Part shown: one piece after another, positions 11,588 to 26,407 of the stretch
Layout: every line of letters begins with the position of its first letter
Numbering within the stretch: the stretch's first letter is position 1
Assembly: GCA_016283575.1 (NCBI GenBank)
Contig: JAEEND010000006.1
Coordinates: 1-33,665 of the forward strand
Reading direction: 5' to 3'
Length of the DNA stretch: 33,665 nt
Source of the DNA: Lachnospiraceae bacterium
GTDB lineage: Bacteria > Bacillota > Clostridia > Lachnospirales > Lachnospiraceae
The notes under the pieces: generated by a model
What the model saw: only the letters and a program-made list of their open reading frames with translations
The model's database searches: none
Told to the model about the DNA's origin: nothing
Position numbers and translations under genes: made by a program

Positions 11588-13107
11588 TAGTTTCCTTTCT
11601 TGGATGCCAAGAATTCATCGTACTGTCTCTGTACCTCAGCAACATATTCATCGATACCTGCTGCCTTTAATTTTGCAACAGCATCATCATAGTGATCGTC
11701 GAAGCTTACAAATCCGCTTCTGATGGGAGCAAAGTCAGATGCAGTAACTTCAGTGATGGCTGTTTCGATCTCAACTACGTTTTCGTTGTTGAAGATGAAG
11801 CCCTGTGCGGAAGAAACCTTCGCATTGTCATCCCAGTGTTCATATGTGTTGATGTATTCGTCAGATACGCTCTTATCGAATAACTGATAGTTCTTGTTTC
11901 TGAACATCCACTCATAGAAGAAATCTTCCTGAGTGAGTTTTTCAACTCTGCCGTCAACCATCTGGTAATCCTTGCCTTCTACACCGTAGATCGCAAATCT
12001 GTAGTTTTCAGGTGAGGAATAGATCCAGTTGATAAACTTCATAGCGCCTTCTTTGTTGGCTGCTGAATAAGGAATGCAAAGTACTTCACCACCGGATGTG
12101 GAGATGTATTTATCCTTTTCGGGTGCTAAGATGTATGTCTTTAACTCTGCATCGGGTGCATTCTGCTGTACTGCATTGATGATTTCACGATCCTTACCGA
12201 TGGAAGCTTCTACCCAAAGATAGAGACCTGTCTGCATACGAGAGTCTTTTTCGTTGTAGTTGGTGGTAAGTTCGTCGGCATATAAGCCCTTCTTGTACAT
12301 TTCTTCGTTGAACTTTGCAACCTTCTTGAATGCTTCTGTTTCATAGTAGCTGGATACCTTACCTGTTGTTTCATCAAGAACTGTGAATACGTCGGTACCG
12401 ATCCATGTAAGCTGATTATCCTGGAAGTATCTTGTGAGAGGCTTAAAGATGATATCAGCGGGTCCCTTTAATTCAGGGAACTGTTCTTTAGCTTTTGTTG
12501 CAAATTCCATAAGGTCATCGGGTGTTTCGATATTGTCCATGCCAACTGCCTTAAGGATATCTTCTCTTACACATACAAGCTGATAGATACCTGAGCTGGG
12601 GCCGTAAGCGGAAGGGATACCGTAGATCTGACCATCTACAAGTCCGCCTTCAACCTGGGACATGGGAAGAACCTTTAACATATCCTGACCATATTCCTGA
12701 ATAAGTTCGTCAAGAGGCTGTGCCTGCTTCTTATTAACAATAAGTGAAAGGTTTGCAAGACCGTCCCAGTAGAGATCTACTGTTTCATTGGCTGCAAGCA
12801 TGATTTCCTTCTTGGTCCAGTACTGGTCCCAGGGAACAAAGATCATGTTAACCTTTAAACCGATGTCGTTATAAATTTTTTCTGCAAATTCATTCTGTAA
12901 GAAATCTGAAAATCTTTCTGTTTCATCACCGGGATAGTAAATGGTGATTTCGCCTGCATCTTCAACGGCTGTGCCGGAAGAAGCGGGTACTTCGGCGTTT
13001 TCCGTACCTGAAGGTACGTCCTTAGACTCTGTTTTTGATCCGCAACCCACTAAACATGAAGCAGCAAGTGCCAATACCAATAACATGCTACATAACTTTT
13101 TTCTCAT
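11587..13107 (-). CDS. Sugar ABC transporter solute-binding lipoprotein
   Basis: A 506-residue extracellular binding protein with a lipoprotein signal peptide (lipobox LVGC, acylated C22) followed by a short Ser/Thr/Glu-rich linker. Its fold is an SBP type-1 carbohydrate binder of the LplA class. The C-terminal segment FDDHYDDAVAKLKAAGIDEY matches the DUF3502-type tail of such proteins. It should capture an oligosaccharide at the membrane for the two permeases encoded just upstream. The substrate is unreadable from sequence. The start has a GGAGG site and lies 55 bases after the second permease gene. It is the third gene of the operon, after both permeases. Confidence 0.93.
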   Translation of the reverse strand: MRKKLCSMLLVLALAASCLVGCGSKTESKDVPSGTENAEVPASSGTAVEDAGEITIYYPGDETERFSDFLQNEFAEKIYNDIGLKVNMIFVPWDQYWTKKEIMLAANETVDLYWDGLANLSLIVNKKQAQPLDELIQEYGQDMLKVLPMSQVEGGLVDGQIYGIPSAYGPSSGIYQLVCVREDILKAVGMDNIETPDDLMEFATKAKEQFPELKGPADIIFKPLTRYFQDNQLTWIGTDVFTVLDETTGKVSSYYETEAFKKVAKFNEEMYKKGLYADELTTNYNEKDSRMQTGLYLWVEASIGKDREIINAVQQNAPDAELKTYILAPEKDKYISTSGGEVLCIPYSAANKEGAMKFINWIYSSPENYRFAIYGVEGKDYQMVDGRVEKLTQEDFFYEWMFRNKNYQLFDKSVSDEYINTYEHWDDNAKVSSAQGFIFNNENVVEIETAITEVTASDFAPIRSGFVSFDDHYDDAVAKLKAAGIDEYVAEVQRQYDEFLASKKGN

Positions 13108-13162: not shown

Positions 13163-14056
13163 CTATTCTTTTACCGCCCCTGTCATAACACCGCTAACAA
13201 AGTATTTCTGAACAAAGGGATAGGCAAAAATAATAGGTCCTATGGTAATAATGGTAACCGCCATCTTAACGGTTTCCGAGGGAAGTGGAATATTGGCTGC
13301 AGCTCCTGCCGGTAAGCGGCCTGACTTAACGGCGTTAACGTTTGACAAAACGTTGTAGAGTAGGTACTGCAGTGGCCAAAGCTTCTTGTTATCAACAAAC
13401 ATGAGAGCATTCCACCAGTCGTTCCAGTACTGCAATGCGTACATGAGACCCACCGTGAGGAGCGGGGTCTTACTGAGGGGCATCGCAATACGGGCATATA
13501 TCTGGAAGTAGTTGGCTCCGTCGATTCTGGCTGCCTCATAAAGAGACTGGGAGATTGCCTTGAAATACGTACGAAGCAAGAACATATTCCACACACTGAA
13601 CATCGAAGGTACTATAAGTCCCACAATGTTATCCTTAAGCCCATAGTAGTTAACACACATAAAGTACCAGGGGATAAGGCCCGCACCAAAGATGATGGTG
13701 AAATTACAGATAAAAGAGATCACGTTTCTGTATTTCATATCTTTAATGGATACGGAAAAAGCCAGCATACTGGTTATGGTAAGAGCAAGAAGTGTTCCCA
13801 CGGCCGTTACGAAGATCGTCACTCCGTAGGACCTTAGTATTTCCTTTCCGCTGTTACCGAATATGTAAATGTAAGTATTGAGTGTAAAGCCCTGGGGGAT
13901 TGCTGAATACCCCTTCATGGCGATCATCTTTTCCGAGGAAAAAGAAACACTCAGTGTCATAAGCAAAGGATAGAAGCACACAAATCCTATAAAGCCGATG
14001 AACACATATGCAAAGATCTGAAGTAACAGATCGCTTCTGTTAGTTTTTACTTTCAT
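13163..14056 (-). CDS. Carbohydrate ABC transporter permease (YtcP/LplC type)
   Basis: A 297-residue inner-membrane permease of the MalG-like class with about six membrane helices. The cytoplasmic EAA loop that contacts the ATPase is visible as YEAARIDGANYFQIYARIAM. The start codon overlaps the stop of the first permease by one base. A shared MsmK/MsmX-type ATPase encoded elsewhere must energise it, because no ATP-binding subunit is in the operon. The C-terminal sequence YPFVQKYFVSGVMTGAVKE is the usual ending of this family. Confidence 0.95.
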   Translation of the reverse strand: MKVKTNRSDLLLQIFAYVFIGFIGFVCFYPLLMTLSVSFSSEKMIAMKGYSAIPQGFTLNTYIYIFGNSGKEILRSYGVTIFVTAVGTLLALTITSMLAFSVSIKDMKYRNVISFICNFTIIFGAGLIPWYFMCVNYYGLKDNIVGLIVPSMFSVWNMFLLRTYFKAISQSLYEAARIDGANYFQIYARIAMPLSKTPLLTVGLMYALQYWNDWWNALMFVDNKKLWPLQYLLYNVLSNVNAVKSGRLPAGAAANIPLPSETVKMAVTIITIGPIIFAYPFVQKYFVSGVMTGAVKE

Positions 14057-15003
14057 CAGAAAAGGCCCTCCCCGTCATTTATTTTCTTGGCAGCCGCATT
14101 AGCCAAGGTTACGAGGATAAGTCCCATAATGGACTGGAAGAGACCTACCGCTGTGGAGTATGAAAATCCCAGGGATCTCATACAGGAATAAACATAAGTA
14201 TCAATAACCGCTACGGAATCTCCGATTACGGGGTTGTTACCGATAATACCGTAAACCATTCCGAAGTCACCGAAGAAGATTCGTCCGATGCTCATAAGCG
14301 TAAGCACCACCGCCGTGGGCTTTAACATGGGAAGTGTTAAATGGATGATACGCTGTAGTTTATTGGCGCCGTCCACCTCTGCTGCTTCGTAGAGGGAACC
14401 GTCAAAGCCTGTCATGGCGCCGAGATAAATAATCGAATTGTATCCGCTCCACTTCCATACGTTGGCAATGATGAGAATGGGCTTCCAGTACTTTCCGTCA
14501 GCATACCATCTTATTTTTTCGCCTCCGAAGAAGGTGATGACTCTGTTCATGACACCGACATCGGTTGCGAAGAGCCCGTATACCAAGGTTCCCACAACAA
14601 CCCATGAAAGGAAGTATGGGAAGAACATCATGCTCTGGGTGAATTTCTTATACATCTTCCCTTGGATCTCGTTAAAGAAGACCGCGATGCTTATGGGAAA
14701 GATAAGTCCAAGGATTATTCCCCACACATTAAGGAACAGTGTGTTGTATATGGATTTGGGACCCATGCCGGTTCCGAAAAAGAAATATTTTAAATGTTTA
14801 AGACCTACAAAAGGGCTTCCGAAAATACCGTCCACCACGTTGTAATCCGTGAATGCCATCCAGATACCCGCAAGAGGGATATATGAGAACAGCAACAGAA
14901 AGAATAACCCCGGTATACACATAAGATAGAGTATTCTGTTCTTTTTAAGCTCGTGGATCACGCCATACTTTTTTGGTTGTGAAGAGGCGTTCTTTTTGCT
15001 CAT
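14056..15003 (-). CDS. Carbohydrate ABC transporter permease (LplB type)
   Basis: A 315-residue inner-membrane permease and the first gene of the sugar operon. It has about six membrane helices, an N-terminal cytoplasmic stretch rich in lysine, and the EAA loop YEAAEVDGANKLQRIIHLTL. The LplB-type permease pairs with the LplC/YtcP-type permease that follows with a one-base overlap. The promoter region upstream (15004-15174) is shared with the divergent AraC regulator gene and carries the conserved operator-like motif at 15091-15115. Transcription is therefore likely to be activated in response to the transported sugar (inference). Confidence 0.95.
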   Translation of the reverse strand: MSKKNASSQPKKYGVIHELKKNRILYLMCIPGLFFLLLFSYIPLAGIWMAFTDYNVVDGIFGSPFVGLKHLKYFFFGTGMGPKSIYNTLFLNVWGIILGLIFPISIAVFFNEIQGKMYKKFTQSMMFFPYFLSWVVVGTLVYGLFATDVGVMNRVITFFGGEKIRWYADGKYWKPILIIANVWKWSGYNSIIYLGAMTGFDGSLYEAAEVDGANKLQRIIHLTLPMLKPTAVVLTLMSIGRIFFGDFGMVYGIIGNNPVIGDSVAVIDTYVYSCMRSLGFSYSTAVGLFQSIMGLILVTLANAAAKKINDGEGLF

Positions 15004-15055
15004 TAAATGTACCTCAATCTCTGATAGTTTTTGTCACCCCACGTGACATCTTTAT

Positions 15056-15061
15056 AATATA
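15056..15061 (-). promoter_or_regulatory. -10 box of the sugar operon promoter
   Basis: The minus strand reads TGCTATATT, an extended TGn -10 element (TATATT) about 53 bases upstream of the first permease start codon. No convincing -35 box lies 17 bases upstream. That is usual at promoters needing an activator, and the conserved motif lies just upstream, at about -42 to -66 from the presumed start site. Confidence 0.5.
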
Positions 15062-15090
15062 GCAAAGTGCATCCTACAAATAGTCTATTT

Positions 15091-15115
15091 TGTTTTCCAA
15101 AACAGATGATTTGTG
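15091..15115 (-). promoter_or_regulatory. Conserved operator copy 1 (sugar operon / araC intergenic)
   Basis: On the plus strand a perfect palindrome TGTTTTCCAAAACA is followed at once by GATGATTTGTG. Nearly the same 25 bases occur upstream of both DUF4832 lipoprotein genes, in the same orientation relative to the gene. It also overlaps the probable -35 region of the divergent AraC-family gene, so it could serve autoregulation. The regulator next door is the obvious candidate binder (inference). Confidence 0.7.
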
Positions 15116-15174
15116 GTATATTATCAACTGTAGGTTTATCTTATCTGACACTTTAAATTCAGGAGCCAAAGTTC

Positions 15175-16092
15175 ATGAAAAGCGTAGATTCGGTACTTTT
15201 ATCTCCTACAGGAGAAATAATCGAGGAAACAGTCTCTCCCTGGCAACAGACATATATTGACGAAACCATGAAGGTCGTGCATGTAAATGACAATTCAAAA
15301 TCTTCGGATCTTTACATGCATTATTGCGGTATGTCGCAGTGCGAACCCGACCACTCCTTCGGTCCTGCCATGAGAGACCATTTTGTCATCCATTATATAA
15401 TAGGCGGCGAAGGTGTGCTTACCATCGGCGACAAAAAATATCATCTCACAAAAAATCAGGGATTTCTTCTTTGTCCAAACATGGTGTCTCAGTATAAGGC
15501 AGATCATGATAACCCCTGGGAATACGTCTGGGTAGGCTTTAACGGTTTGAATGCTCAGATTTATTTAAATCAGGCTTCCTTAAATGCTAATAACCCGGTA
15601 TTCACCTATGATAAGGACGATACAGTAAAGTCATGCTTACTTGAAATGGTAAATACCTACGATGCCTACAAGTACGCTACCAATTTAAAGCTTCAGTCAT
15701 TACTGTACCTGCTTCTTTCAGAGCTTGTAGAGAATGCGACTTTAAAATCACCCATAGAGCATATGCCCCTTCAATATCGCTATATTCAAAAGGCTATTTC
15801 ATATATTCAGATGAATTACATGGAGGATACTCTTTCAGTTACGGGGCTTTCAGATTATGTAGGTCTTGACAGAAGCTATTTATGTTCTATTTTTAAGAAG
15901 TATCTGAACAGTTCCCCTCAGTCCTATATATCTCAGTACAGGATCAACCGTGCCTGCGAGCTCCTTAAGAACACCTCCTATTCCATCAGTGATGTGTCAA
16001 GGATGATCGGATATAAGGACCCCGTAGTGTTCCAGAAATTCTTTAAGAAAATAACCGGGATGCCCCCCAGCAGGTATAGAAAAGAAGCTTAG
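15175..16092 (+). CDS. AraC-family transcriptional regulator of the sugar regulon
   Basis: A 305-residue regulator. Residues about 60-155 form an AraC-type cupin sensor domain (HYIIGGEGVLTIGDKKYHL, then GFLLCPNMVSQY). The C-terminal 100 residues carry two helix-turn-helix motifs, LSVTGLSDYVGLDRSYLCSI and YSISDVSRMIGYKDPVVFQK, ending GMPPSRYRK, the classic AraC/XylS signature. It is divergent from the sugar operon with 171 bases between start codons. AGGAG lies nine bases upstream of its ATG. A TATATT at 15117-15122 may be its -10 box. By family and position it probably binds the oligosaccharide or a derivative and activates the operon and the two DUF4832 genes (inference). Confidence 0.92.
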   Translation: MKSVDSVLLSPTGEIIEETVSPWQQTYIDETMKVVHVNDNSKSSDLYMHYCGMSQCEPDHSFGPAMRDHFVIHYIIGGEGVLTIGDKKYHLTKNQGFLLCPNMVSQYKADHDNPWEYVWVGFNGLNAQIYLNQASLNANNPVFTYDKDDTVKSCLLEMVNTYDAYKYATNLKLQSLLYLLLSELVENATLKSPIEHMPLQYRYIQKAISYIQMNYMEDTLSVTGLSDYVGLDRSYLCSIFKKYLNSSPQSYISQYRINRACELLKNTSYSISDVSRMIGYKDPVVFQKFFKKITGMPPSRYRKEA

Positions 16093-16114
16093 TTCACTTA
16101 ATAGGATCAAACGA

Positions 16115-16148
16115 AAAAAGCGCAAGGAACAAAATCCTTACGCTTTTT
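16115..16148. terminator. Bidirectional terminator between araC-type gene and DUF4832 gene
   Basis: AAAAAGCG plus AAGGA pair with TCCTT plus CGCTTTTT around a six-base loop, with one internal mismatch on the plus strand that becomes a G-U pair on the minus strand. Runs of T follow on both strands. It lies between the convergent gene ends at 16092 and 16192 and should serve both. Confidence 0.8.
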
Positions 16149-16191
16149 CTAATCTATGTGAGGAGTGATTTATGACCGTTTCGTCCAATTA

Positions 16192-18141
16192 CTATTTCTT
16201 TATGAGTCTTATACAGTCAAAGTCAGGGGCCCAGCCGGTCTCGTTGTGGAAATAGAAGGTATTTAAGCCCTTTTTAAGTTCAAATTCCACGCTGAAAGTT
16301 CCGAGAGTGGTCCAGTCTTCTCCTGAAGGAGGGAAGTCGATCTTGACATCTTCACCTTCATTTACGGAAACCTTTACATATCTCTCTTCTTTTGTAATAT
16401 AAGTAAATTCCACTTCATAAAGTCCGTCTTCAGGCGCTTCCACGTTTTCCATGTAGAGGCTTCCGCCTTCTTTCCCTATATAGCCGACTTTTCTTCCGCC
16501 CATGCATTCGGGCACATCCCTGTCAACAATGGCAAGGCCCTCGATGCGGCCGTTTTCCGCCTGGAAATATCCGTCAACACCGTCTTCCACGGGTTCCGGC
16601 TCCACATATACAATGGGGGGAACTTCTTCGATCACATCAAGTTCCATTTCAGGTCCCAAAATCGTAACAGTGCCTAATGTAAGCCATCCGTCATCTTCCT
16701 GACCCTCATTGGCAAAGAACAAAAGCTTACCTCCGGGAAGAGGGTTCTGAACCTTCATGCAGAGCGTGTATTCTCCGCCGCCGAGATTGTGCTTTTCTAT
16801 ATTATGTGTAAAAGAAACTTCGTTTCCGTCTGCGGGAATGTCGCATAAATCCCACTCGGTCTTATATTTCTTTACAAGATTTCCATCCTTTTTAATGCCG
16901 AGAGTCACGGGCCACTTGGTGTGATCGTAATAGAAGGGGGCTACACCGATATTCTTAATGCTTACTTCTACCTCCATGGATTCAGCGGATACTTCCTCAA
17001 GGAAAGTCGCTTCCGTAACCTGAAGGTCATAGCCCAGGCTGTCAGATGCTTTTATCGCATTCTCTCTTGCTTCATCCCGGTATATCTTAATGCGGTCACA
17101 CATAAGCCATGATGCGTGAGTATTCTGTACGCATGTGGCAAAATCCTGTCTTCCTTCCTGCTCTATCCATTCGGGATATTCTACGGGATCGTTAAAGAGT
17201 CCCGGCTGGATCGGAGGATATACTTCGCCGCCGATACAGTTTGTTTTCCACTTTTCTGTTTCACCGAGATTTTCAACCTTCTGCCCGAAGCTCCATTCCT
17301 GTCCGCCGTTAGCTGCTGTCAATGTCGCATAGGCAAAAGAATCATCATGATAGCCCGCGTTATATCGGGCATTGTCGATTCCGGGCTTTGGCTCTCTTAC
17401 AAGTAAAGGTGTGATCTTAAATGCCTCATCGAAAGTCTCGTATACTTCTTCATATACTTCCACGGGGATGCTCCAGTCGGGTTTTCCGTCAGATAAATCT
17501 TCATCAAAGGGCCAGTTGTGCCACTCACCCCAGAATCCCAAAAGTCCTTCGGTAATAAATCCTATTCGCGCATCTCCGTCATACTTAGCGCCAAAGGCCT
17601 TAATAAAGTTCTTCATGGATTCTCTTAAGTTTTCGTCGCTGTAATCAGGGCAAAGACCGCCACCGCCCAGATCATCCGGTTCATTATAGGGGCGCATCTT
17701 GAGACCCTTGTCGATCAGAAACTCCGGAACCCCTGATTCTTCTCCGGGATAATCATAATAGAATCGAAGCACTGCCTGATTTCCCTGCTCGGCAGATAAG
17801 TTAAGCTTTTCTTCCAGAGCATTCCAGTCAAAGATATTGGTGCTTACCTGCACCGCACTTACAGGAATATAAAACCAGTCCATGCTGTGAGGGAAATCCG
17901 TTTCACTTCCCTGAAAAGGAATAAGACCCTTCAATGGATTTCCGCTTTTAGAAATACCGGCAGGTATCTCATGGGACACCGCCGTAAGATTAGCTTTTTC
18001 GTTCATTTCCCCGCCCTCATCTGTTTGCACATTTTCCTTATCGTCGCTTTGTCCGGCTCCGCCGCAGCCTGCGACACAGGATAAAGAAAGTGCAAGCATC
18101 AACATCATACCGATCAGTTTCTTTTTCACTTTTGTAACCAT
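16192..18141 (-). CDS. Secreted lipoprotein with DUF4874/DUF4832 putative glycosidase domain and CBM35-like module
   Basis: A 649-residue lipoprotein (lipobox VAGC, acylated C26). Residues about 60-360 match the DUF4874/DUF4832 barrel, beginning NPLKGLIPF and including GLLGFWGEWHNWPFDED near residue 200. The Trp/Glu/His-rich motif is a candidate active site. Residues about 365-500 form the following beta domain (SIKNIGVAPFYYDHTKWPV). The last about 125 residues (YFQAENGRIEG to the C terminus) resemble a CBM35/CBM6 sugar-binding module. The family sits in the TIM-barrel glycosidase superfamily, but I know of no characterised activity. It is a single-gene unit with the conserved operator 79 bases upstream and a terminator downstream. 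It probably binds or trims a polysaccharide at the cell surface for the ABC importer (inference). Confidence 0.8.
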   Translation of the reverse strand: MVTKVKKKLIGMMLMLALSLSCVAGCGGAGQSDDKENVQTDEGGEMNEKANLTAVSHEIPAGISKSGNPLKGLIPFQGSETDFPHSMDWFYIPVSAVQVSTNIFDWNALEEKLNLSAEQGNQAVLRFYYDYPGEESGVPEFLIDKGLKMRPYNEPDDLGGGGLCPDYSDENLRESMKNFIKAFGAKYDGDARIGFITEGLLGFWGEWHNWPFDEDLSDGKPDWSIPVEVYEEVYETFDEAFKITPLLVREPKPGIDNARYNAGYHDDSFAYATLTAANGGQEWSFGQKVENLGETEKWKTNCIGGEVYPPIQPGLFNDPVEYPEWIEQEGRQDFATCVQNTHASWLMCDRIKIYRDEARENAIKASDSLGYDLQVTEATFLEEVSAESMEVEVSIKNIGVAPFYYDHTKWPVTLGIKKDGNLVKKYKTEWDLCDIPADGNEVSFTHNIEKHNLGGGEYTLCMKVQNPLPGGKLLFFANEGQEDDGWLTLGTVTILGPEMELDVIEEVPPIVYVEPEPVEDGVDGYFQAENGRIEGLAIVDRDVPECMGGRKVGYIGKEGGSLYMENVEAPEDGLYEVEFTYITKEERYVKVSVNEGEDVKIDFPPSGEDWTTLGTFSVEFELKKGLNTFYFHNETGWAPDFDCIRLIKK

Positions 18142-18183
18142 ACCTTTCCTGATTTATAGTTCCAAGCATACCTGTATGTTTAC

Positions 18184-18189
18184 ATTATG
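18184..18189 (-). promoter_or_regulatory. -10 box for the 649-residue DUF4832 gene
   Basis: The minus strand reads CATAAT about 42 bases upstream of the start codon. Its distance to the conserved operator (about 34 bases centre to edge) is nearly the same as at the sugar operon promoter, which supports both calls. Confidence 0.5.
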
Positions 18190-18220
18190 CCGTGATTATG
18201 CATGATGTGACAGATTAGTA

Positions 18221-18245
18221 TGTTTTCTAAAACAGATGATTTGTG
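18221..18245 (-). promoter_or_regulatory. Conserved operator copy 2 (upstream of 649-residue DUF4832 gene)
   Basis: Plus strand: perfect palindrome TGTTTTCTAAAACA followed by GATGATTTGTG, differing from copy 1 at a single base. It lies 79 bases upstream of the start codon and extends to nine bases from the end of the metallopeptidase gene. Confidence 0.72.
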
Positions 18246-18253
18246 GGATTATT

Positions 18254-18817
18254 CTAAGGCAGTCTGCCAAGTAAGGACGGCCCGAGTATTTTAAGTGTTT
18301 TCCTGTCTTTCTTATAGTCGGGGTGATACCTTTCAACCTCCAGCCAGAAGGCTTTTGAATGGTTCATATGTCTTCTGTGGGACAGTTCGTGCACTATTAC
18401 ATATCGCCTTACATTGGGAGGTAACTGCATGAGAAGGCAGTTAAAGTTAAGATTCCCGTCTGACGAGCAGCTTCCCCAGCGTGTTTTCTGAGCTCTCACC
18501 GAAATCCGTCCGTAACTTACTCCCATGATCCTCGCCATGGATTCAACCTCCACCGGGATCACGGATTTTGCAAGCTTTTTTAGATTGTTAAGCTCATCGG
18601 ATGTAAAAGGCGTGGTTTTTATGCCTTCTTTTTCCGCAGCATCTCTACGCTTCTCCATGCGCTTTTGAGCCTTTTCGATCCAGTCAAGCTTCCTGTATAA
18701 AAATTCTTCAATGGTGCTCTTCCGGGTTAAAAGCGGCGCCTTTACCACCACTCTTCCGTCAGGTTCCACCATTATCGATATGGTCCGTCTCCGGGACCTT
18801 ATTAATTCGTATTCCAT
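18254..18817 (-). CDS. YgjP/DUF45-type zinc metallopeptidase
   Basis: A 187-residue protein with the zincin motif VIVHELSHRRHMNHSKAFW. HELSH carries the two zinc-binding histidines and the catalytic glutamate, and the third histidine follows in the MNHS context typical of the M48-related YgjP/DUF45 family. Upstream are the usual segments RSRRRTISIMVEPDG, KTRWGSC and LNFNCLLMQLP. There is no signal peptide, so it is cytoplasmic. Its substrate is not known. It lies between secreted enzyme genes in the same orientation but looks unrelated to sugar use. No clear ribosome binding site precedes the ATG at 18817, so expression may be low or the start uncertain. Confidence 0.9.
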   Translation of the reverse strand: MEYELIRSRRRTISIMVEPDGRVVVKAPLLTRKSTIEEFLYRKLDWIEKAQKRMEKRRDAAEKEGIKTTPFTSDELNNLKKLAKSVIPVEVESMARIMGVSYGRISVRAQKTRWGSCSSDGNLNFNCLLMQLPPNVRRYVIVHELSHRRHMNHSKAFWLEVERYHPDYKKDRKTLKILGPSLLGRLP

Positions 18818-18850
18818 AGCGTTCTTATAATATCATCCGTCCAAAAAAAA

Positions 18851-18878
18851 GAAAACCGGCCGCATAGGACCGGTTTCC
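18851..18878 (-). terminator. Terminator of the GH87-like gene
   Basis: On the minus strand GGAAACCGG pairs with CCGGTTTTC around a ten-base loop, followed by a run of eight T. It lies just after the stop of the 1244-residue gene and would also insulate the metallopeptidase gene downstream. Confidence 0.85.
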
Positions 18879-18888
18879 CTTTATTTTT

Positions 18889-21800
18889 TTAATAAACATT
18901 AATTGATATGGTCTTCTGGTTGTTGCCTTCGTTAACTTCACCGGGAAGTCTGTTTACGTCATCAACCCACGCCATAACAGTGTGACTGCCATTCACTGCG
19001 TACCAGCGGTTTCCGTTGTTTCCGCCGTTAGCATCGAGGGTTACGCTCTGTCCGGGCTGTAATCCGCTTGAATAAGAATCGCACCATGTGATAACGCTTG
19101 TGTTACCGTCCACCTGGAACTGTACGCCGATAACAGTGCCTGCGGGAATTGCTGCATCTCCTGCATTAACAACTGTTGCAGAGAAACGTACCTGGTCACC
19201 CTGGTGGATTGAATTCTTATCATAGCTTACGCCTGTAACTACCAGATCATAACCTCCGGTTACGGGTGTGTATCCAAGATCGGGCTGCTGGCTTCCACCA
19301 CCCTGGTTTCCTCCGTTACCGACTGTAAAAGAAACTGTCTTCAAATTGTTTCCTTCGTTAACTTCGTTGGAAAGTCTGTTTACATCATCTACCCATGCGG
19401 TAACTGTATGGGAACCTGCAGTAGCATTCCAGTAGTTTCCTGCATTGCCGCCGTTGGCGGTTAAGTTTACTCTTGCGCCTGGCTGTAAGCCTCCTGCGTA
19501 ATTATCACACCATGTGATCACATTGGTATTTCCGTCTATCTGGAACTGAATACCGATGGTGGTACCTGCGGGAATTGCTGTATCACCTGCATTAACAACA
19601 GTTGCAGTGAACTGAACATGATCTCCTGCGTTAATATCATTAACCGCAATATCTGTTACGAATAAATCGTATCCGCCGTAAACAGGTGTGTAGTCAAGAT
19701 CAGGATCCGGCTCCGGTTCAGGTTCCGGATCAGGATCGGGATTGGGATCGGGATCGGGATCCGGATCAGGGTTTGGATTGGGATCGGGATCAGGGTTAGG
19801 ATTCGGATCTTCACCATAATAATCAGGAGCATAGGTGGTAATATTATTGAGATTTGTTAAGTTGTCTGCTCCGTCGGGATTACTTATATAAACCACTCCG
19901 CCGTAAGGAACTGAAATATTGACTGTCTTAATATTATTTCCTTCGTTAACCTCATTGGGAAGTCTGTTTACATCATCTACCCATGCGCTTATGCTGTGGG
20001 ATCCGGTTGCAGCACGCCATGTATTACCATTGGTTCCGCCATTAGCGGTGAGAGTGACTGTCGCACCGGGCTGTAAGCCACTGTTATAGCTATCACACCA
20101 TGTGATGGCACTTGTATTTCCATCTACCTGGAACTGGACGCCGATTGTTGTACCTGCGGGAACAGCTCTGTCGCCTGCATTTACAACCTTAGCTGAGAAT
20201 GTAAGATTTTCATTTTCAGCTATTGTTTCTTTTCCGTAAGTTATATCAAGTACCTGAAGATCGTATCCGCCGCTTACCTCGGTGTAATTATTGTTATTGG
20301 CTCCGGGACGTACGTTCATGGACTTTGACTTTGTGTTATTGTTTTCGGAAAGCTCCTTATCAAGCCTGTTCTGATAATCGACTGTAGCTACAAATGTATG
20401 TCCGCCCTTTGCTGCAGTCCATGTATTTATGGCATCAAGCTTAATGCTCTGACCCTTGTTGAGGCCGTCTCTGTATGTTGTATTAAGATAATTACCCTTG
20501 CCATCCACAGTTACCTTAAGAGTAATGGGAACACCGGCAGGAATATCCACGTTGGAATCGTTCTTGATCGCTGCGGAGAATGTTACCTGATCACCGTTTG
20601 TAAGGTCGTGAGAACCTGCGGCATTTTTCCATGTTAAGCCTGTGATCTTAAGGTCATAATCCTGAATACCGTCAAGGGGATCCACAACACCGCCACCCTG
20701 ATTGTTGTTATCAGGTGTAGGATATCCGGGGATTACATATGATGTGCCTTCATCATAAATTGTAACGTTGTTAAAAGAAGGATGTACGCCACCTGTCAGG
20801 AAGTAAGGAGCGTTTTCTCCCGTCCAGGCTACATTGGCGATCTCGAGACCGTTAAATACTGCGCCTTCGCCACCTGCTCTGATGGCAGCACCTTCATGAT
20901 ATACGGAGGAGTAGTTTGCTCTCTGAGAGTCAACTCCCGCACCAAAAATCTTGGTGTTGTTAAATACAATGCCTGTAGGTGAATTGTCTAAGATCCTTAC
21001 GCCTTCATGCTGTGCATCGTAGATCTGTGTGTTATTAAAGGTTACATTTGATACATTCTGCTTAACATCAACTGCACCAAGCTCTTCTTTCCAGCTGTCT
21101 GAACTTGTACCGCAGCGTACTAAGATATTGTTATCAAAAGTGATACCTGTGTTATTGCTGAACTTATAACCGTCAAAGGTTGTATTCAAGTGAATACCTG
21201 CTGCCATAAACATGTCGCAGATATAGTTATTATAAATATGGTGACCGCTTCCGCCGTAAATTGCGATGCCGCCGGCGCGCCATATAAATTCGATTGTGTT
21301 GTAAGCTAAGATATTTCCGGTTTCATCCTTTGCATTGCCATAGGTGTTATTCCACATGGCAAGACCATCATCACCGTTGTTTCTTATATTACAGTTATAA
21401 ACAACAGCATTTGATGTACCCTGGCAGAAGTTAACACCGTCTGCAAGGTTATTTCTGATACGGCAGTTAATAACCTTAACTCCGTCGGAGTAGTCCATTT
21501 TGCCATTGTAATCTCCGAACCAGAAACCGCATTCAAAATGTTCTTCCCAGATATCATGTATCACGGAACCGTCTGTATATACATCCATGAAGCACTTGTA
21601 AATTGCCTGCTGATTGTATCTCGAGTTAAGGTTCGAGTTGATGTACATGTTACAGAATTCAATATTATTGCAATATCCGTCCTTGGGACCATAGGTCATC
21701 CAGCCGCCCGAGATACCGCCGCTGTCAGGCTGGTTGCTGGTAAACTGAATGTTGGTATACCACATACCCGCACCGGTGATCTTCATGTTGGAGCCGTACA

Positions 21801-22623
21801 ATCTCCAGGTCTGTCCGATATGGAAAGTACCTGCGGGAATATATACGTCCATATCATGGCTGTCAGCATATTCAATTGCGGAATAGATCGCATTATAGTC
21901 GTCCTGTCCGTCATCGGGAACAGCGCCGAAATCTTCAACATTTACACTGCCGGCGGGCTGGTAAATGGGATCCGGAACATTTTCCACTTCCACAAAGTCA
22001 ACACCATACTCAAGACCGGAAGCGCCGCTGCTCTGAATCTTCAATACATCCCCTGCCTTTAAGGGTGTATCCAAAAGAAAATGAACTTCATCAAAGGCAA
22101 AACAAGGTGCTCCACCATCGTTGGTATCACTGGGATTACCCTGAGCAAAATACTGCCACATATAATATGATGTGAGATTTACAGTCTTTACTTTTCTATT
22201 ATTTACATATACATCCAGTGAGCCTGTAAGACCGTTGCTTCCTGAATCAGGCATTGTAAATCTCATGGTTACACCTGCGCCCACCGTGTTTGCAAGAGGA
22301 TCATCGGTTACCATGGTCCACTGTGCGTAAGAGCCTGAACCCGGAAGTCTTACATAAGACTGCTTTGAAGCCTGGCTCGCAATATTCATTCTGTTAAAAT
22401 CAGGAGATGATGCAATGGCAGCGCCGCCCCCTATTTGCGCCTGCATCGAATCATATCTAGTGTATGGCATTGCTGCTCCCACTTCACCGTTAGCACTTGC
22501 CCCGGGAATCTGAAAAGCATCGGCAACGCCTGCAGCTTCTGCCTGAATTGCGGGATTAGCTACGTTTAGTACCATGAGTGCTGCGAGAGTCATGGCACAT
22601 ATCCACCTTGTTCTTCGTTTCAT
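18889..22623 (-). CDS. Secreted GH87-like beta-helix glycanase with four CARDB domains
   Basis: A 1244-residue exported protein with a Sec signal peptide (cleavage probably after IQAEAA near residue 31). Residues about 50-215 look like the CBM35-type domain found in GH87 proteins. Residues about 225-640 form a right-handed parallel beta-helix starting NVEDFGAVPDDGQDD. D395 (DGVNFCQGTSN) and D418/D419 (NNGDDGLAMW) have the spacing I recall for the catalytic aspartates of GH87 alpha-1,3-glucanases. Four CARDB domains follow (about 645-770, 780-905, 975-1100, 1115-1244), with an Asp/Pro/Asn linker at about 936-974. The probable substrate is alpha-1,3-glucan or a related alpha-glucan (inference), and a pectate-lyase-like role is the alternative. 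No cell-wall anchor motif is visible. Two palindromic operators lie upstream. Confidence 0.75.
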   Translation of the reverse strand: MKRRTRWICAMTLAALMVLNVANPAIQAEAAGVADAFQIPGASANGEVGAAMPYTRYDSMQAQIGGGAAIASSPDFNRMNIASQASKQSYVRLPGSGSYAQWTMVTDDPLANTVGAGVTMRFTMPDSGSNGLTGSLDVYVNNRKVKTVNLTSYYMWQYFAQGNPSDTNDGGAPCFAFDEVHFLLDTPLKAGDVLKIQSSGASGLEYGVDFVEVENVPDPIYQPAGSVNVEDFGAVPDDGQDDYNAIYSAIEYADSHDMDVYIPAGTFHIGQTWRLYGSNMKITGAGMWYTNIQFTSNQPDSGGISGGWMTYGPKDGYCNNIEFCNMYINSNLNSRYNQQAIYKCFMDVYTDGSVIHDIWEEHFECGFWFGDYNGKMDYSDGVKVINCRIRNNLADGVNFCQGTSNAVVYNCNIRNNGDDGLAMWNNTYGNAKDETGNILAYNTIEFIWRAGGIAIYGGSGHHIYNNYICDMFMAAGIHLNTTFDGYKFSNNTGITFDNNILVRCGTSSDSWKEELGAVDVKQNVSNVTFNNTQIYDAQHEGVRILDNSPTGIVFNNTKIFGAGVDSQRANYSSVYHEGAAIRAGGEGAVFNGLEIANVAWTGENAPYFLTGGVHPSFNNVTIYDEGTSYVIPGYPTPDNNNQGGGVVDPLDGIQDYDLKITGLTWKNAAGSHDLTNGDQVTFSAAIKNDSNVDIPAGVPITLKVTVDGKGNYLNTTYRDGLNKGQSIKLDAINTWTAAKGGHTFVATVDYQNRLDKELSENNNTKSKSMNVRPGANNNNYTEVSGGYDLQVLDITYGKETIAENENLTFSAKVVNAGDRAVPAGTTIGVQFQVDGNTSAITWCDSYNSGLQPGATVTLTANGGTNGNTWRAATGSHSISAWVDDVNRLPNEVNEGNNIKTVNISVPYGGVVYISNPDGADNLTNLNNITTYAPDYYGEDPNPNPDPDPNPNPDPDPDPDPNPDPDPEPEPEPDPDLDYTPVYGGYDLFVTDIAVNDINAGDHVQFTATVVNAGDTAIPAGTTIGIQFQIDGNTNVITWCDNYAGGLQPGARVNLTANGGNAGNYWNATAGSHTVTAWVDDVNRLSNEVNEGNNLKTVSFTVGNGGNQGGGSQQPDLGYTPVTGGYDLVVTGVSYDKNSIHQGDQVRFSATVVNAGDAAIPAGTVIGVQFQVDGNTSVITWCDSYSSGLQPGQSVTLDANGGNNGNRWYAVNGSHTVMAWVDDVNRLPGEVNEGNNQKTISINVY
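18892..20290 (-). repeat. Near-repeated CARDB units within the GH87-like gene
   Basis: Three units at about 18892-19290, 19320-19700 and 19905-20290 share long similar DNA and protein blocks, for example IPAGT.IG.QFQ.DGNT, ITWCD and HSI/HTV.AWVDDVNRL. The fourth, N-terminal unit (about 20300-20690) has the same architecture but has diverged. The similarity of the three suggests fairly recent duplication or gene conversion. Confidence 0.8.
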
Positions 22624-22720
22624 AAAACAATCCTTTCAATACTGCATAGTTTCTTGCTACCTCTGCGATTTACCCCGCAATAACGAAATTTGGCTATGAA
22701 GGGTATATTCCGCAGATTTA

Positions 22721-22736
22721 CGTTTAACGTTAAACG
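22721..22736. promoter_or_regulatory. LacI-type operator, downstream copy
   Basis: A perfect 16-base palindrome CGTTTAACGTTAAACG with a central CG, the typical form of LacI/CcpA-family operators. It lies in the leader of the GH87-like gene, 97 bases upstream of its start codon and 92 bases (centre to centre) from the second copy. Confidence 0.7.
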
Positions 22737-22813
22737 TCTCGAATTCCGATTAATTTCCCCACAAAAATACTGTTCTCCTTCCTTTTTTCAACCATTTTTA
22801 CGTGCTGTTTTTC

Positions 22814-22827
22814 GTTTAACGTTAAAC
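22814..22827. promoter_or_regulatory. LacI-type operator overlapping the transcription start
   Basis: A perfect 14-base palindrome GTTTAACGTTAAAC two bases downstream of the -10 box, so it covers the expected start site. A bound repressor would block transcription directly. The core is identical to that of the copy at 22721. The regulator itself is not in the window. Confidence 0.75.
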
Positions 22828-22829
22828 TA

Positions 22830-22858
22830 ATTCTATCATTGTGAGACAACTCAATCAA
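22830..22858 (-). promoter_or_regulatory. Sigma-A-type promoter of the GH87-like gene
   Basis: On the minus strand TTGATT (22853-22858) and TAGAAT (22830-22835) are separated by exactly 17 bases. The leader to the start codon is about 200 bases, unusually long, and contains the second operator. Apart from these elements and the terminator at 22880-22905 I see nothing else in the 296-base gap. Confidence 0.65.
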
Positions 22859-22879
22859 TATCACAAATTTTCACAAAAA

Positions 22880-22905
22880 AAGAAGGTCCCTTTTGGAACC
22901 TTCTT
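22880..22905 (-). terminator. Terminator of the 1127-residue DUF4832 gene
   Basis: On the minus strand AAGAAGGTTCC pairs with GGGACCTTCTT (one G-U pair) around an AAAA loop and is followed by an uninterrupted T run. It lies 15 bases after the stop codon. Confidence 0.9.
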
Positions 22906-22919
22906 CAAAAAATCGTTTT

Positions 22920-25900
22920 TTAATGCTTAAAGCTGTATGTAGCCATTGGGCTCTGCATGTTGTCATAGTTGCTGGAATGTACCAGACACCAGTCTGAATC
23001 CTTGAGCTCCATACCTATTCCGATGGTGGATGCCAAAGTCTTCTCGGCTGTAACAAGCTTATTCTTAGGAATCTTTATTTCCATTACACCGTCAACAAGA
23101 GAGTAATAGCTTAAACCATCCTGTACATCAATAAGAGGCGCCCATGATGTATTATTGGTGGTCTGCTGTCTCAAGAGACCTGACTCGATCACGAAATCAG
23201 AGCCTGTGCTTCCGGGCTGCCATACCCAGTCAATCTGATAGCCTGTAGCAGTATTTCCATCGGTATTAAACTCGATGGCATAGTGGGGATATGTGCTCTC
23301 GGGCACTCCTGTTACGCCTACATATAAATAATCTGCATCATCGGTAACATATATCTCCATGATACTGTCACTGTAGAATGCGTTCACGCCGTTCCATACA
23401 TTAAGGGTACCGGGGAATATTGCGCCGGGCTCGGGATTGGTGTTTCCCTGCTCATTTCCGCCTTCGTTTCCCGTATTTCCGGTATCACCACCTTCATTTC
23501 CGGATCCTCCGTTGTTGCCTGCATTCTGGTTAGATGAGCTATAGCTTAATACTTCAGCTCCGTTACTTGAACCGATCTCGCCCCAGTCACCGTCAATATA
23601 GCGAAGCCCTACACCTATGGTAGCAGCCAAAGGTCTGTCGGATTTGTTAAGCGCTGCCTTCTTTATCCTTACTTCTATGCATTTATTGCCTGCATCAACT
23701 ACGCTTGCTACCGCATCTTCCACATATGTGGTGTAATCCCAGTTCCAGTCTCCGTCAGATGTGCTCTTATATGCAAGATTTCCGCCGTTAAGATCACCTT
23801 CAACCATGTAATCGATACCGCCCGGTGCGAAGGGCCAGGTACTTGTCATGCCTGTTCCGGAATTTCCGTCAGCATCTATCATTACCTGCCAGTGCTGAAG
23901 GTTACTGTATTTATATTCCGTTGCAAAATAAACATATTCTGTATCATCTTTTACCCAGATCGTCTGTGAATCATTGGTATAAATAGGATTCACGTTGCTC
24001 CAATCGGTATAGAAACCGCGGGTAAAGTGGTCGCTTCCCGTATCAGGAGTCTCAGGCTCAGTAATTTCCGTATAGCCCTTTGTAAACTTGAAGTAATCCA
24101 TGTCGGGAGCATAACCTGTGTCATTATGTACAAGGATGGTATTTACTCCCTGCCTTAAGTTGACATTTGCAAGCTTCGTACCAAGAGTTGTCCATCCGCC
24201 TGTTGATGTGAAATTAACTGTTACGGTTTCACCGCCTGCCGATGCACCGCCGTTCACTTCAAGGGTAGCGGTTCTGTGATCTTCACCGAGTACATAGGCG
24301 ATCTCTACGGTATATGCGCCCGCTTCACTTACTTCAATATGGTCAAGACTGAAACTTCCGCTTTCACCGTCGCCGGTTCCAATCCAGCCCACCATCTTTC
24401 CGTTGGAAGCCTTATAGTTATCTGAAAGAGTGGCTTTTCCGTAAAGCGTGCCGCGCTCTGCTTCATAAAGGCCGTTAACACCGTCGGGTGTAGGTTCGGG
24501 TTCGGGAGTTTCACCGGGGCCGTTATCATCACCTACAGGGTCATAATTTACATTTCCTGCATTAGATACCGTAAAGCTTCCGAGACTTAACCATCCGTCA
24601 GCACCCTGTCCCGCATTTGAAAAGCTCAAGAATACTCCGCCGCTCAAAGGATTCTGAACCTTCATGCAAAGAGCGTAATTGCCGTTTCCAAGTCCGTGAT
24701 TTTCTATATTTGTGTTAAAAGAAACAACATTTCCGTTAGCAGGAATACTGTTTAAATCCCATGTGGTGTAGTATTTCTTGACGAGAGTGTCACCCTGCTT
24801 AACGCCGATCATTACCGGCCATGTGTTGTGATCGTAATAGAAGGGAGCAACACCGTTATTCTTTATACCTACCGAAACGGGAAGGCTTGTATTGCCGCCG
24901 ATCGTCTCGCTGTATGAAGCAGTTACCACCTGAAGATCATAGCCGAGACCCTTTGATGCATTGATGGCATTGGCTTTAGTGTTACCACTGTAACCCTTTA
25001 TCTGATCGCACATAAGCCAGCTTGCATGTGTTTCATTGACGCATGCCTGCCAGTTCTGGGTATCACCTGTAGTATTTCCGGTGAAAATGCTTCCCTGAAG
25101 AGGAGGATAAACCTCACCGCCGATACAGCCGAACTGCCAGTTGTTCTGAACTCCCTGGTTGATGAGTCTCTGCATAAAGCTCCAGCTCTGGCCACCGTTA
25201 GCTTCCGATAAAGTTGCATAAGCAAAAGAATCGTCATGGTAGCCTGTGCGGAAGGCGGGATCGTCAACACCATCCTTGGGTTCTCTGACTACAAGCTGTG
25301 TAGTATCAAATGCATTGTTAAATGCAGTATATACTTCCGTATAGACCTCAGCGGGAATGTTCCAGTTGGGCTTTCCGTCCGAAGTATCTTCATCGAAGGG
25401 CCAGTTATGCCACTCGCCCCAGAAGCCTAAGAGACCTTCTGTAATAAATCCGATTCTGGGATCTCCGTCATACTGAGCACCGAAAGCTGCTATAAAATCA
25501 GCCATGGATGCTCTGAAATGGACATCCGCATAATCGGGACATAAGCCGGATCCCCCAAGATTACCGGGCTCATTGTAGGGTCTCATTTCAAGATGATATT
25601 TATCAATCAAATACTGAGGAACACCCGTGCTTTCACCGGGATAGTCATAATAGAAGCGAAGCACTGCCTGGTGTCCGCGACCTGCAATGGTATTAAGCCT
25701 TGATTCAAGGGCAGACCAGTCGTAAACCCCTTCTGCAACTTCCACTTCATTAACCGCAATGTAGAACCATTCCATACTTACAGGGAATGTGGTCTCACCC
25801 GAGAAAGGAATAAGTCCCTTCAAAGGATTCACATCCGGTGTAGGTCCTGCCTGAATCTGATGTTCTGTCACATTAAGAGTGACAGGTGTGTTGGCAGGCG

Positions 25901-26303
25901 CACTTCCCTGATTGGATGATCCGGAATTTCCGGAACCTGTGCTACCTGATCCTGCATTACCGGATCCTGTGTTGCTACCTGTGTTACTGCTATTGTTATT
26001 ATTTGAATTTCCCCCATTGTTACGGCCTCTTCCGGTCCTTGAGGATCTTGCCGCCGTTCTTACGGTAGTGTTTGTTTCAGGAGTTACCGTAACCTCCTCG
26101 ATAGATGCGCTTTCTACAGCCACATCTTCTTTTTCATCAGATACCGTATCTTCCGTAACCGCCTCAATTACGGTATCTGCCAAGGGCTGCTCAGATTCTT
26201 CGATCACTGTGTAAGAATCTGCCGCTGCGACTTTCGGCCCACAGCCGCCCATGGTAGAAAGAACCAAAAGGGCAGCCAAGAGCATGCCAAATGTCTTTTT
26301 CAT
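22920..26303 (-). CDS. Large secreted lipoprotein with DUF4874/DUF4832 domain, CBM35-like and two CBM9/DOMON-like modules
   Basis: A 1127-residue lipoprotein (lipobox MGGC, acylated C21). A Glu/Val/Thr-rich region and an Asn/Ser/Gly-rich linker reach residue about 140. The DUF4874/DUF4832 region (about 155-585) parallels the 649-residue paralogue closely, again with GLLGFWGEWHNWPFDED near 296. A CBM35-like module follows (about 608-745). Two repeated beta-sandwich modules (about 757-922 and 956-1127; FATEYKYSNLQHWQVMIDAD and YAIEFNTDGNTATGYQIDW) resemble CBM9/DOMON domains and are joined by a Gly/Asn/Glu linker. The extra modules suggest stronger attachment to insoluble glycan. The start has a GGAGG site, the conserved operator lies 79 bases upstream and a strong terminator follows, so it is monocistronic. 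Catalytic activity is unproven. Confidence 0.8.
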   Translation of the reverse strand: MKKTFGMLLAALLVLSTMGGCGPKVAAADSYTVIEESEQPLADTVIEAVTEDTVSDEKEDVAVESASIEEVTVTPETNTTVRTAARSSRTGRGRNNGGNSNNNNSSNTGSNTGSGNAGSGSTGSGNSGSSNQGSAPANTPVTLNVTEHQIQAGPTPDVNPLKGLIPFSGETTFPVSMEWFYIAVNEVEVAEGVYDWSALESRLNTIAGRGHQAVLRFYYDYPGESTGVPQYLIDKYHLEMRPYNEPGNLGGSGLCPDYADVHFRASMADFIAAFGAQYDGDPRIGFITEGLLGFWGEWHNWPFDEDTSDGKPNWNIPAEVYTEVYTAFNNAFDTTQLVVREPKDGVDDPAFRTGYHDDSFAYATLSEANGGQSWSFMQRLINQGVQNNWQFGCIGGEVYPPLQGSIFTGNTTGDTQNWQACVNETHASWLMCDQIKGYSGNTKANAINASKGLGYDLQVVTASYSETIGGNTSLPVSVGIKNNGVAPFYYDHNTWPVMIGVKQGDTLVKKYYTTWDLNSIPANGNVVSFNTNIENHGLGNGNYALCMKVQNPLSGGVFLSFSNAGQGADGWLSLGSFTVSNAGNVNYDPVGDDNGPGETPEPEPTPDGVNGLYEAERGTLYGKATLSDNYKASNGKMVGWIGTGDGESGSFSLDHIEVSEAGAYTVEIAYVLGEDHRTATLEVNGGASAGGETVTVNFTSTGGWTTLGTKLANVNLRQGVNTILVHNDTGYAPDMDYFKFTKGYTEITEPETPDTGSDHFTRGFYTDWSNVNPIYTNDSQTIWVKDDTEYVYFATEYKYSNLQHWQVMIDADGNSGTGMTSTWPFAPGGIDYMVEGDLNGGNLAYKSTSDGDWNWDYTTYVEDAVASVVDAGNKCIEVRIKKAALNKSDRPLAATIGVGLRYIDGDWGEIGSSNGAEVLSYSSSNQNAGNNGGSGNEGGDTGNTGNEGGNEQGNTNPEPGAIFPGTLNVWNGVNAFYSDSIMEIYVTDDADYLYVGVTGVPESTYPHYAIEFNTDGNTATGYQIDWVWQPGSTGSDFVIESGLLRQQTTNNTSWAPLIDVQDGLSYYSLVDGVMEIKIPKNKLVTAEKTLASTIGIGMELKDSDWCLVHSSNYDNMQSPMATYSFKH

Positions 26304-26344
26304 TTTTCACCTCCATAAAAAAGAAAACCTTCAGTAACACCCTA

Positions 26345-26350
26345 ATTTTA
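26345..26350 (-). promoter_or_regulatory. -10 box for the 1127-residue DUF4832 gene
   Basis: The minus strand reads TAAAAT about 41 bases upstream of the start codon, at nearly the same distance from the conserved operator as in the other two promoters. A TTGACT lies only 12 bases upstream, too close for a normal -35. Confidence 0.45.
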
Positions 26351-26382
26351 CGTATATTTTAAAGTCAATTAATATAACAATA

Positions 26383-26407
26383 TGTCATCAAAAACAGATA
26401 ATTTGTG
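26383..26407 (-). promoter_or_regulatory. Conserved operator copy 3 (upstream of 1127-residue DUF4832 gene)
   Basis: Plus strand TGTCATCAAAAACA followed by GATAATTTGTG. The left half has lost the palindrome seen in copies 1 and 2, but the AAAACAGAT and ATTTGTG core is kept. It lies 79 bases upstream of the start codon, exactly as for copy 2, in the divergent region shared with the ECF sigma gene. Confidence 0.65.

Follow-up and report, generated by a model that had tools for sequence, protein, structure and literature searches.

In a 33,665-nucleotide stretch of a Lachnospiraceae genome (contig JAEEND010000006.1 of assembly GCA_016283575.1; the window), three copies of a 25-bp element precede a sugar-importer operon and two separate genes for lipoproteins of the DUF4832 family. 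Comparison of sequences makes it very probable that the element is the conserved operator part of the AraC-family regulator whose gene lies at 15175-16092 and which would activate the importer operon and both DUF4832 genes. An earlier note on this DNA had proposed such a shared operator, an AraC-family activator and the resulting link between the importer and the two lipoprotein genes. The proposal gains support from conservation of the site in relatives, from its co-occurrence with the regulator across genomes, and from the gene arrangement of Butyrivibrio sp. MC2013.

Read in the direction of their minus-strand genes, the copies are CACAAATCATCTGTTTTGGAAAACA (copy 1), CACAAATCATCTGTTTTAGAAAACA (copy 2) and CACAAATTATCTGTTTTTGATGACA (copy 3). 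An exact pattern search recovered all three at the places, with the sequences and with the common core that the earlier note had listed, and they do lie in the same orientation 87, 79 and 79 bases upstream of the respective start codons. The core AAAACAGAT-N-ATTTGTG (15099-15115, 18229-18245 and 26391-26407) has three exact matches in the genome of 2,214,002 bases, all of them in the window, while the reversed pattern, taken as a control, has no exact match in the genome. There are no genomic matches with one mismatch and three with two mismatches, all three overlapping open reading frames of at least 100 amino acids. With up to three mismatches allowed, the window contains 6 matches against 0.70 +/- 0.89 in shuffled sequences, and the genome 47 against 21 for the reversed control. 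Far from being scattered through unrelated DNA, which the earlier note had named as contrary to its proposal, the exact copies all stand before the three named units.

The flanks of the copies bear on the possibility that they are left over from a duplicated promoter or from a spreading gene cluster, devoid of present regulatory meaning. The short and long DUF4832 proteins, with 54% identity in alignment, are paralogs, and the cluster has a patchy distribution and probably passes from genus to genus (MC2013 has a regulator of 89% identity), both in keeping with such an origin. However, the 60 bases upstream of the site match between the three promoters at the level of chance (14, 8 and 13 identities of 60 in pairwise comparison), which excludes recent copying of the whole promoter as the source of the copies. 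The core is also kept across lineages before different genes, and its distance to the -10 hexamer is near-constant. Pairwise identity between the site and the -10 amounts to 8, 11 and 12 of 31 positions, and beyond the -10 to 12, 11 and 17 of 45, the slightly high value of 17 being that of the two DUF4832 paralogs. We find a relic origin barely credible.

A scan of contigs with the short DUF4832 protein yielded 20 loci, five of which (L061-L065) carry the site before the DUF4832 gene. In L061-L064 the site also stands beside the regulator gene; the L062 contig stops short of the expected position of the permease gene. With the addition of two regulator loci, L160 (Butyrivibrio sp. MC2013) and L159, the collection comprises 15 sites from six lineages: the window; L061 and L064, apparently of one genus and counted as one lineage; L062; L063; L065 and L160; and L159. 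By genome labels matched through coordinates, five of the six lineages represent different genera, L062 being left out of the genus comparison. The consensus CACAAAT-NNN-CTGTTTT-N5-ACA is matched exactly by 14 of the 15 sites, the remaining one, before the DUF4832 gene of L063, differing at two positions. Twelve of the 17 core positions (CACA, T and CTGTTTT) and the ACA never vary.

The left half of copies 1 and 2 (TGTTTTCCAAAACA and TGTTTTCTAAAACA), described earlier as a perfect palindrome, turns out to consist of perfect 6-nucleotide inverted arms round an asymmetric 2-bp centre. These arms, and the invariance of TGTTTT-N5-ACA in all 15 sites, might be taken to indicate that a different regulator, of the LacI, GntR or catabolite-control type, binds the inverted repeat TGTTTT-N2-AAAACA as a symmetric dimer. 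Against this, copy 3 and many relatives do not keep the symmetry, TGTTTT-N5-ACA being all of the repeat that stays invariant, and the repeat does not include the conserved CACAAAT block. The catabolite-responsive element (cre box) has the consensus TG-N4-CG-N4-CA with a central CG; this CG occurs in 1 of the 15 sites, which thus do not qualify as cre boxes. Moreover, the distribution of exact sites in the genome survey described below is matched by the AraC-family gene, the sole regulator compared in this way. The inverted repeat was rejected as the functional unit because its symmetry is not conserved, and binding by a regulator of another family appears unlikely.

Promoter geometry is consistent with an AraC-type activator. 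A TATAAT-like hexamer begins 56 nucleotides from the outer end of the site, except that the long DUF4832 genes of the window and MC2013 have it at 57. Over the 15 sites, the -10 consensus is matched at 71 of 90 positions with the offset fixed at 56 and at 77 of 90 with offsets of 55-57 allowed, against a mean of 43.9 and a maximum of 58 in 5000 shuffles. The -10-like box reported in the earlier note is thus present, although the conserved hexamer lies 31-32 nucleotides from the inner end of the site instead of the 33-36 bases given there. With positions counted by setting the -10 hexamer at -12 to -7, the start sites being unmapped, the 17-bp distal half-site CACAAATNATCTGTTTT spans about -68 to -52 and the ACA about -46 to -44. 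About 21-22 nucleotides downstream of the distal half-site comes a second, weaker version of it, ACA-N7-CT[A/G]T, over the expected -35, where the hexamers match poorly (2 to 5 of 6 positions). A class II AraC-type layout entails a proximal half-site over the -35 and a fixed distance to the -10, and both are seen. It also entails a direct repeat of the two half-sites at a spacing of about 21 bp; here the distal one is strongly conserved in the 15 sites and the proximal one is weak. The former estimate that the site lies at about -42 to -68, as befits an activator, holds, the 17-mer being upstream of the expected -35.

On the opposite side, all 7 divergent loci have a -10-like hexamer for the regulator gene 1 nucleotide past the 17-mer, with 4 to 6 of 6 matches in each. 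The total of 37 of 42 matches compares with a shuffle maximum of 29 over any of 45 offsets; the equivalent place at the 8 DUF4832 sites gives 21 of 48. Since the 17-mer abuts the regulator's -10, binding should repress the regulator gene, and autorepression is predicted. The same abutment in all seven loci could suggest a regulator whose main effect at all these sites is repression. Yet the three target promoters have the 17-mer farther upstream than the expected -35, and their -35 hexamers are poor, which suits an activator, and AraC itself both activates and represses, according to the available part of PMC4760080. We therefore consider a predominantly repressing role very unlikely.

The AraC-family gene does adjoin copy 1, as had been noted before, and is divergent from the operon. 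Its product carries a C-terminal HTH_18 domain (E 1.2e-21; HTH_AraC matches in two stretches) and an N-terminal AraC_binding domain (E 5.5e-26), for which the best solved match is BgaR (6nwh, E 7e-19, residues 45-195). We surveyed 397 genomes of the family for the site with at most one mismatch and for regulator orthologs at E <= 1e-75. The survey returned 41 site matches, 8 exact and 33 with one mismatch, against 12 for the reversed control. All 8 exact sites fall in four genomes (G000, G211, G299 and G331), and the regulator ortholog is found in the same four (Fisher 1e-9). This restriction of exact matches to regulator-bearing genomes makes the site specific enough to find regulon members elsewhere. 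The three exact-site loci inspected contain close homologs of regulon genes, which are absent from the neighbourhood of the 27 one-mismatch loci inspected, where the weak matches were limited to permease matches at 23% and 31% (L097) and a helix-turn-helix match at 32% (L109). Among the 20 DUF4832-bearing genomes, a set that overlaps with the 397 (coordinates suggest that G453 is the same as G299, and G454 the same as G211), the ten exact sites belong to the five genomes with a regulator at 73-89% identity. None of the other 15 has an exact site; four of these have a regulator at 49-56% identity and 11 have none at E <= 1e-60.

In most loci the site and the regulator gene lie side by side, and their co-occurrence is therefore partly the inheritance of one cluster. 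Butyrivibrio sp. MC2013 is the exception to this linkage and thus carries the weight of the co-occurrence argument: one scaffold holds the regulator together with the importer operon, a second holds the DUF4832 gene, and each has an exact site. The two sites are at least 52 kb and at least 90 kb from the contig ends, and hence at least about 140 kb apart. A third copy was not found in MC2013 at up to two mismatches. The regulator is 89% identical between the window genome and MC2013 (G455/G687), which belong to different genera. Searches of 17 further genomes from the window's genus (62-99% complete; best identity 41%) and of six other listed genomes from the Butyrivibrio genus gave no ortholog. 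High identity across genera, coupled with the lack of an ortholog in the congeners searched, suggests that the regulon moved horizontally between genera.

Several observations weigh against the assignment of the site to this activator. Rival -10 hexamers, as good as the conserved one or better, occur at offset 59 both at copy 1 and at the long gene of L064. Of the two half-sites the proximal one is weak, with its ACA repeating at 21 nucleotides and its CT at 22, and the long DUF4832 genes have the poorest version of it. The closely related L061 and L064 do not provide independent evidence. The survey has 33 one-mismatch matches, 1 of them in a genome with the regulator, and the reversed control a total of 12 matches. 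Linkage accounts for part of the co-occurrence of site and regulator, and the unlinked arrangement is known from a single genome, that of MC2013. The DUF4832 genes are spread more widely than the regulator, being found without it at E <= 1e-60 in 11 of 20 genomes, and a DUF4832 gene was not seen in the G331 stretch (L159), where the contig ends soon after the regulator. Finally, the exact motif was not found with regulators at 49-56% identity, and the relaxed form of the site that may accompany these regulators is a lead, its pattern being post hoc.

The relaxed pattern (ACAAAW, C at +9, CA at +22 and a -10 at +54 to +56) was defined after viewing the sequences. It precedes the permease gene in L066, the DUF4832 gene in L072, L073 and L079, and the GNAT_C-domain gene in L079, with a weaker match before the DUF4832 gene of L066; as a further point of the same adverse kind, it was not found before the Ruminiclostridium permease gene. 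Strict matches are absent from the eight DUF4832 loci without the regulator (L067-L071, L074, L075 and L077) and from the surroundings of two more distant AraC-family genes (L081 and L165). Non-strict matches also occur at places without a known link to the regulon (L064, L071, L081 and L160). A second AraC-family gene of the window's genome (G000:C6, 42% identity) has a two-mismatch match to the site about 2.7 kb away. The match was taken as unrelated, because it overlaps a small open reading frame and the stretch is without a strict match to the relaxed architecture.

Under the proposed mechanism, an inducing sugar derived from the imported glycan would bind the N-terminal sensor domain of the regulator, and the regulator dimer would fill the strong distal and weak proximal half-sites and contact RNA polymerase as a class II activator. 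The three promoters would be activated together, yielding the permeases, solute-binding protein, GH31, kinase, GNAT_C-domain protein and oxidoreductase of the operon along with the two DUF4832 lipoproteins, while binding at the regulator's own divergent promoter would repress its gene. The DUF4832 proteins, as extracellular glycosidases, would cut the polymer, and the solute-binding protein would capture fragments for import. The imported fragments would then be trimmed by the GH31 enzyme, which is alpha-galactosidase-like, and phosphorylated by the NahK-like kinase. The features concerned are collected in the table below.

Table. Coordinates of the control sites, promoter elements and genes in the window
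Feature	Coordinates	Strand	Description
Operator copy 1	15091..15115	-	CACAAATCATCTGTTTT-ggaaa-ACA; precedes permease-first sugar operon, also within divergent regulator promoter
Operator copy 2	18221..18245	-	Precedes 649-amino-acid DUF4832 lipoprotein gene
Operator copy 3	26383..26407	-	Precedes 1127-amino-acid DUF4832 lipoprotein gene
Weaker promoter-proximal half-site, copy 1	15076..15094	-	ACA-N7-CTATTTGT, about 21-22 nucleotides downstream of distal half, over expected -35
-10 TATTAT, sugar operon	15054..15059	-	Offset 56; equally good hexamer at offset 59 (34 nucleotides from inner end)
-10 CATAAT, short DUF4832 gene	18184..18189	-	Offset 56
-10 TAAAAT, long DUF4832 gene	26345..26350	-	Offset 57
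-10 TATATT, AraC-family gene	15117..15122	+	1 nucleotide past 17-mer
AraC-family regulator (AraC_binding + HTH_18)	15175..16092	+	Domain scan; predicted binder
ATP-binding cassette (ABC) sugar permease 1	14056..15003	-	First gene of operon; domain scan
ABC sugar permease 2	13163..14056	-	Named by sequence and operon place
Extracellular solute-binding lipoprotein (SBP_bac_1 + DUF3502)	11587..13107	-	Domain scan
GH31	10070..11587	-	Closest solved relatives GH31 alpha-galactosidases; signal peptide not apparent on reading
APH-fold sugar kinase related to N-acetylhexosamine 1-kinase (NahK)	8923..10023	-	Domain scan and structure matches
GNAT_C-domain protein	7630..8922	-	Domain scan
Gfo/Idh/MocA oxidoreductase	6373..7626	-	Domain scan
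DUF4832 lipoprotein, short form, 649 amino acids	16192..18141	-	Predicted TIM barrel, beta-sandwich and CBM35/CBM6-like domain
DUF4832 lipoprotein, long form, 1127 amino acids	22920..26303	-	CBM6 and C-terminal extension
GH87-type alpha-1,3-glucanase with CARDB repeats	18889..22623	-	Outside AraC regulon
Palindrome GTTTAACGTTAAAC upstream of GH87 gene	22722..22735		LacI-type
Second palindrome GTTTAACGTTAAAC upstream of GH87 gene	22814..22827		92 nucleotides from first

The operon GH31 (PF01055, E 1.4e-31) finds its best solved match in 8j50 (E 6e-130), followed by MYORG (9e-59), and its motifs KFDAGD and CPDMIGGG, which hold the nucleophile and acid/base aspartates, align with those of 8j50. 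Its closest solved relatives are thus GH31 alpha-galactosidases (PDB 8j50-8j53; MYORG 7qqf, from the available part of PMC9491548), and by relatedness the enzyme is predicted to be alpha-galactosidase-like. The kinase resembles NahK (PDB 4wh1 and 4ocj) over nearly its full length (E 2e-89). Genes for the importer, GH31, oxidoreductase, regulator and DUF4832 protein are clustered in Pseudobutyrivibrio sp. RUI423 and in two Ruminiclostridium genomes; Clostridium sp. KNHs205 has the same cluster, with no GH31 match seen in the stretch examined. The GNAT_C-domain protein (7630-8922) recurs in related loci, and its homolog in L079 has a relaxed-type site of its own.

Both lipoproteins narrowly pass the PF16116 threshold, with 31.3 and 30.8 bits against a gathering score of 29.2. 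A shorter model of the short form (predicted local distance difference test, pLDDT, 84; predicted template modelling score 0.86) places a TIM barrel before the DUF4832 beta-sandwich. In Foldseek searches the best match of this model is a GH35 beta-galactosidase (E 6e-10) with a template modelling score of only about 0.3, and a 600-amino-acid model gives multidomain matches with low scores. The models support a TIM-barrel glycosidase fold and no particular family. The invariant glutamates E157 and E257 (numbered by the first aligned sequence) are candidate catalytic acids and in the models would lie after strand 4 and on strand 7, as in clan GH-A; the stretch around E157 has a pLDDT below 50. 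In two copies from rumen metagenome-assembled genomes (L061, 1386-3338; L062, 2884-4815) the short DUF4832 gene has in-frame stop codons, which perhaps reflect sequence or assembly error, other genomes having intact copies.

By their domain description, the DUF4832 proteins of the window resemble SIR_1591 of Streptococcus intermedius, an extracellular protein with the same pair of TIM barrel and DUF4832 domains, which, in the available part of PMC12345266, is reported to be active as a glycoside hydrolase and to disrupt Pel-dependent aggregates. Both secreted DUF4832 proteins of the window are probably glycosidases. The earlier note had spoken of uncharacterised secreted proteins tied to a specific importer; the tie is supported, whereas the proteins are not wholly uncharacterised, given the reported hydrolase activity of SIR_1591. 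Unlike the DUF4832 genes of the window, SIR_1591 sits, as far as the same source describes it, in a Pel biosynthesis operon and not in an importer regulon.

Pel is a polymer of alpha-1,4-linked N-acetylgalactosamine (GalNAc) and galactosamine (PMC12345266, available part). The action of SIR_1591 on Pel aggregates, the relatedness of the operon enzymes to GH31 alpha-galactosidases and NahK, and the conserved clustering make a polymer of alpha-linked galactose (Gal) or GalNAc a plausible substrate. For MYORG, on the other hand, the available part of PMC9491548 reports that a GalNAc substrate is not accepted, and the 11 of 20 DUF4832 genomes without this regulator also count against such a substrate. 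The wider scenario is a tentative one, to which we lend rather little credence: the genes might form a mobile system by which rumen Lachnospiraceae scavenge alpha-linked galactose/galactosamine exopolysaccharides of the bacterial Pel or fungal galactosaminogalactan type, with DUF4832 proteins as clan GH-A-like polymer cutters, GH31 and the NahK-like kinase processing Gal/GalNAc, and one AraC-type activator in control.

The GH87 gene was tried as a member of the AraC-type regulon and rejected, because the site is absent and the gene has its own pair of LacI-type palindromes. Elsewhere in the genome the palindrome GTTTAACGTTAAAC occurs exactly as one pair only, 89 nucleotides apart (C15:227464/227553), with one-mismatch copies at C15:218437 and C15:221259. 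At this locus (L170, C15:218437-227566) the pair lies directly before a gene for a solute-binding protein, the copy at 218437 lies directly before a LacI-family gene, and that at 221259 is within a GH65 open reading frame. Two GH65 genes follow, and two permease-size open reading frames lie between. The palindromes join the GH87 gene to this distant LacI/GH65 locus in a predicted second regulon in trans, perhaps for alpha-1,3-glucan; uptake and phosphorolysis of alpha-1,3-gluco-oligosaccharides would fit. The GH87 gene would thus lie between the DUF4832 genes under a different switch, and proximity alone would misassign it. At the edge of the window (31866-33662) is a gene for a protein with BNR/sialidase-like repeats and ricin-B lectin and AbfB domains.

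Sugar regulons under AraC-type control are a well-known kind of system, of which this member, its operator and the DUF4832 link are newly delineated. The coordinates of the ara half-sites and their overlap with the -35 are textbook knowledge. The arrangement in the window is like that of Escherichia coli AraC at araBAD in the regulator family, the two tandem unequal half-sites, the divergent regulator gene and the sugar-gene targets, and unlike it in sequence, in the unlinked targets encoding secreted proteins and in the Gram-positive host. At araBAD the stronger half-site is araI1, and the weaker araI2 recruits the polymerase, as set out in the available part of PMC4760080. AraC-family sugar regulons have been reconstructed by comparative genomics (PMC3870299 and PMC8579813, in their available parts), and the present regulon was deduced in the same way, from operators conserved upstream of genes for transport, catabolism and enzymes. 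No earlier report of the regulon, of its operator or of a link between DUF4832 proteins, this importer and GH31/NahK-like enzymes was found in the literature searched, a coverage that takes in few subscription journals. Through the predicted control site, a little-studied family of secreted DUF4832 proteins is connected with one particular importer as well as with an alpha-galactosidase-like enzyme and a relative of amino-sugar kinases, and these surface proteins thereby acquire a testable prediction as to their substrate and inducer.

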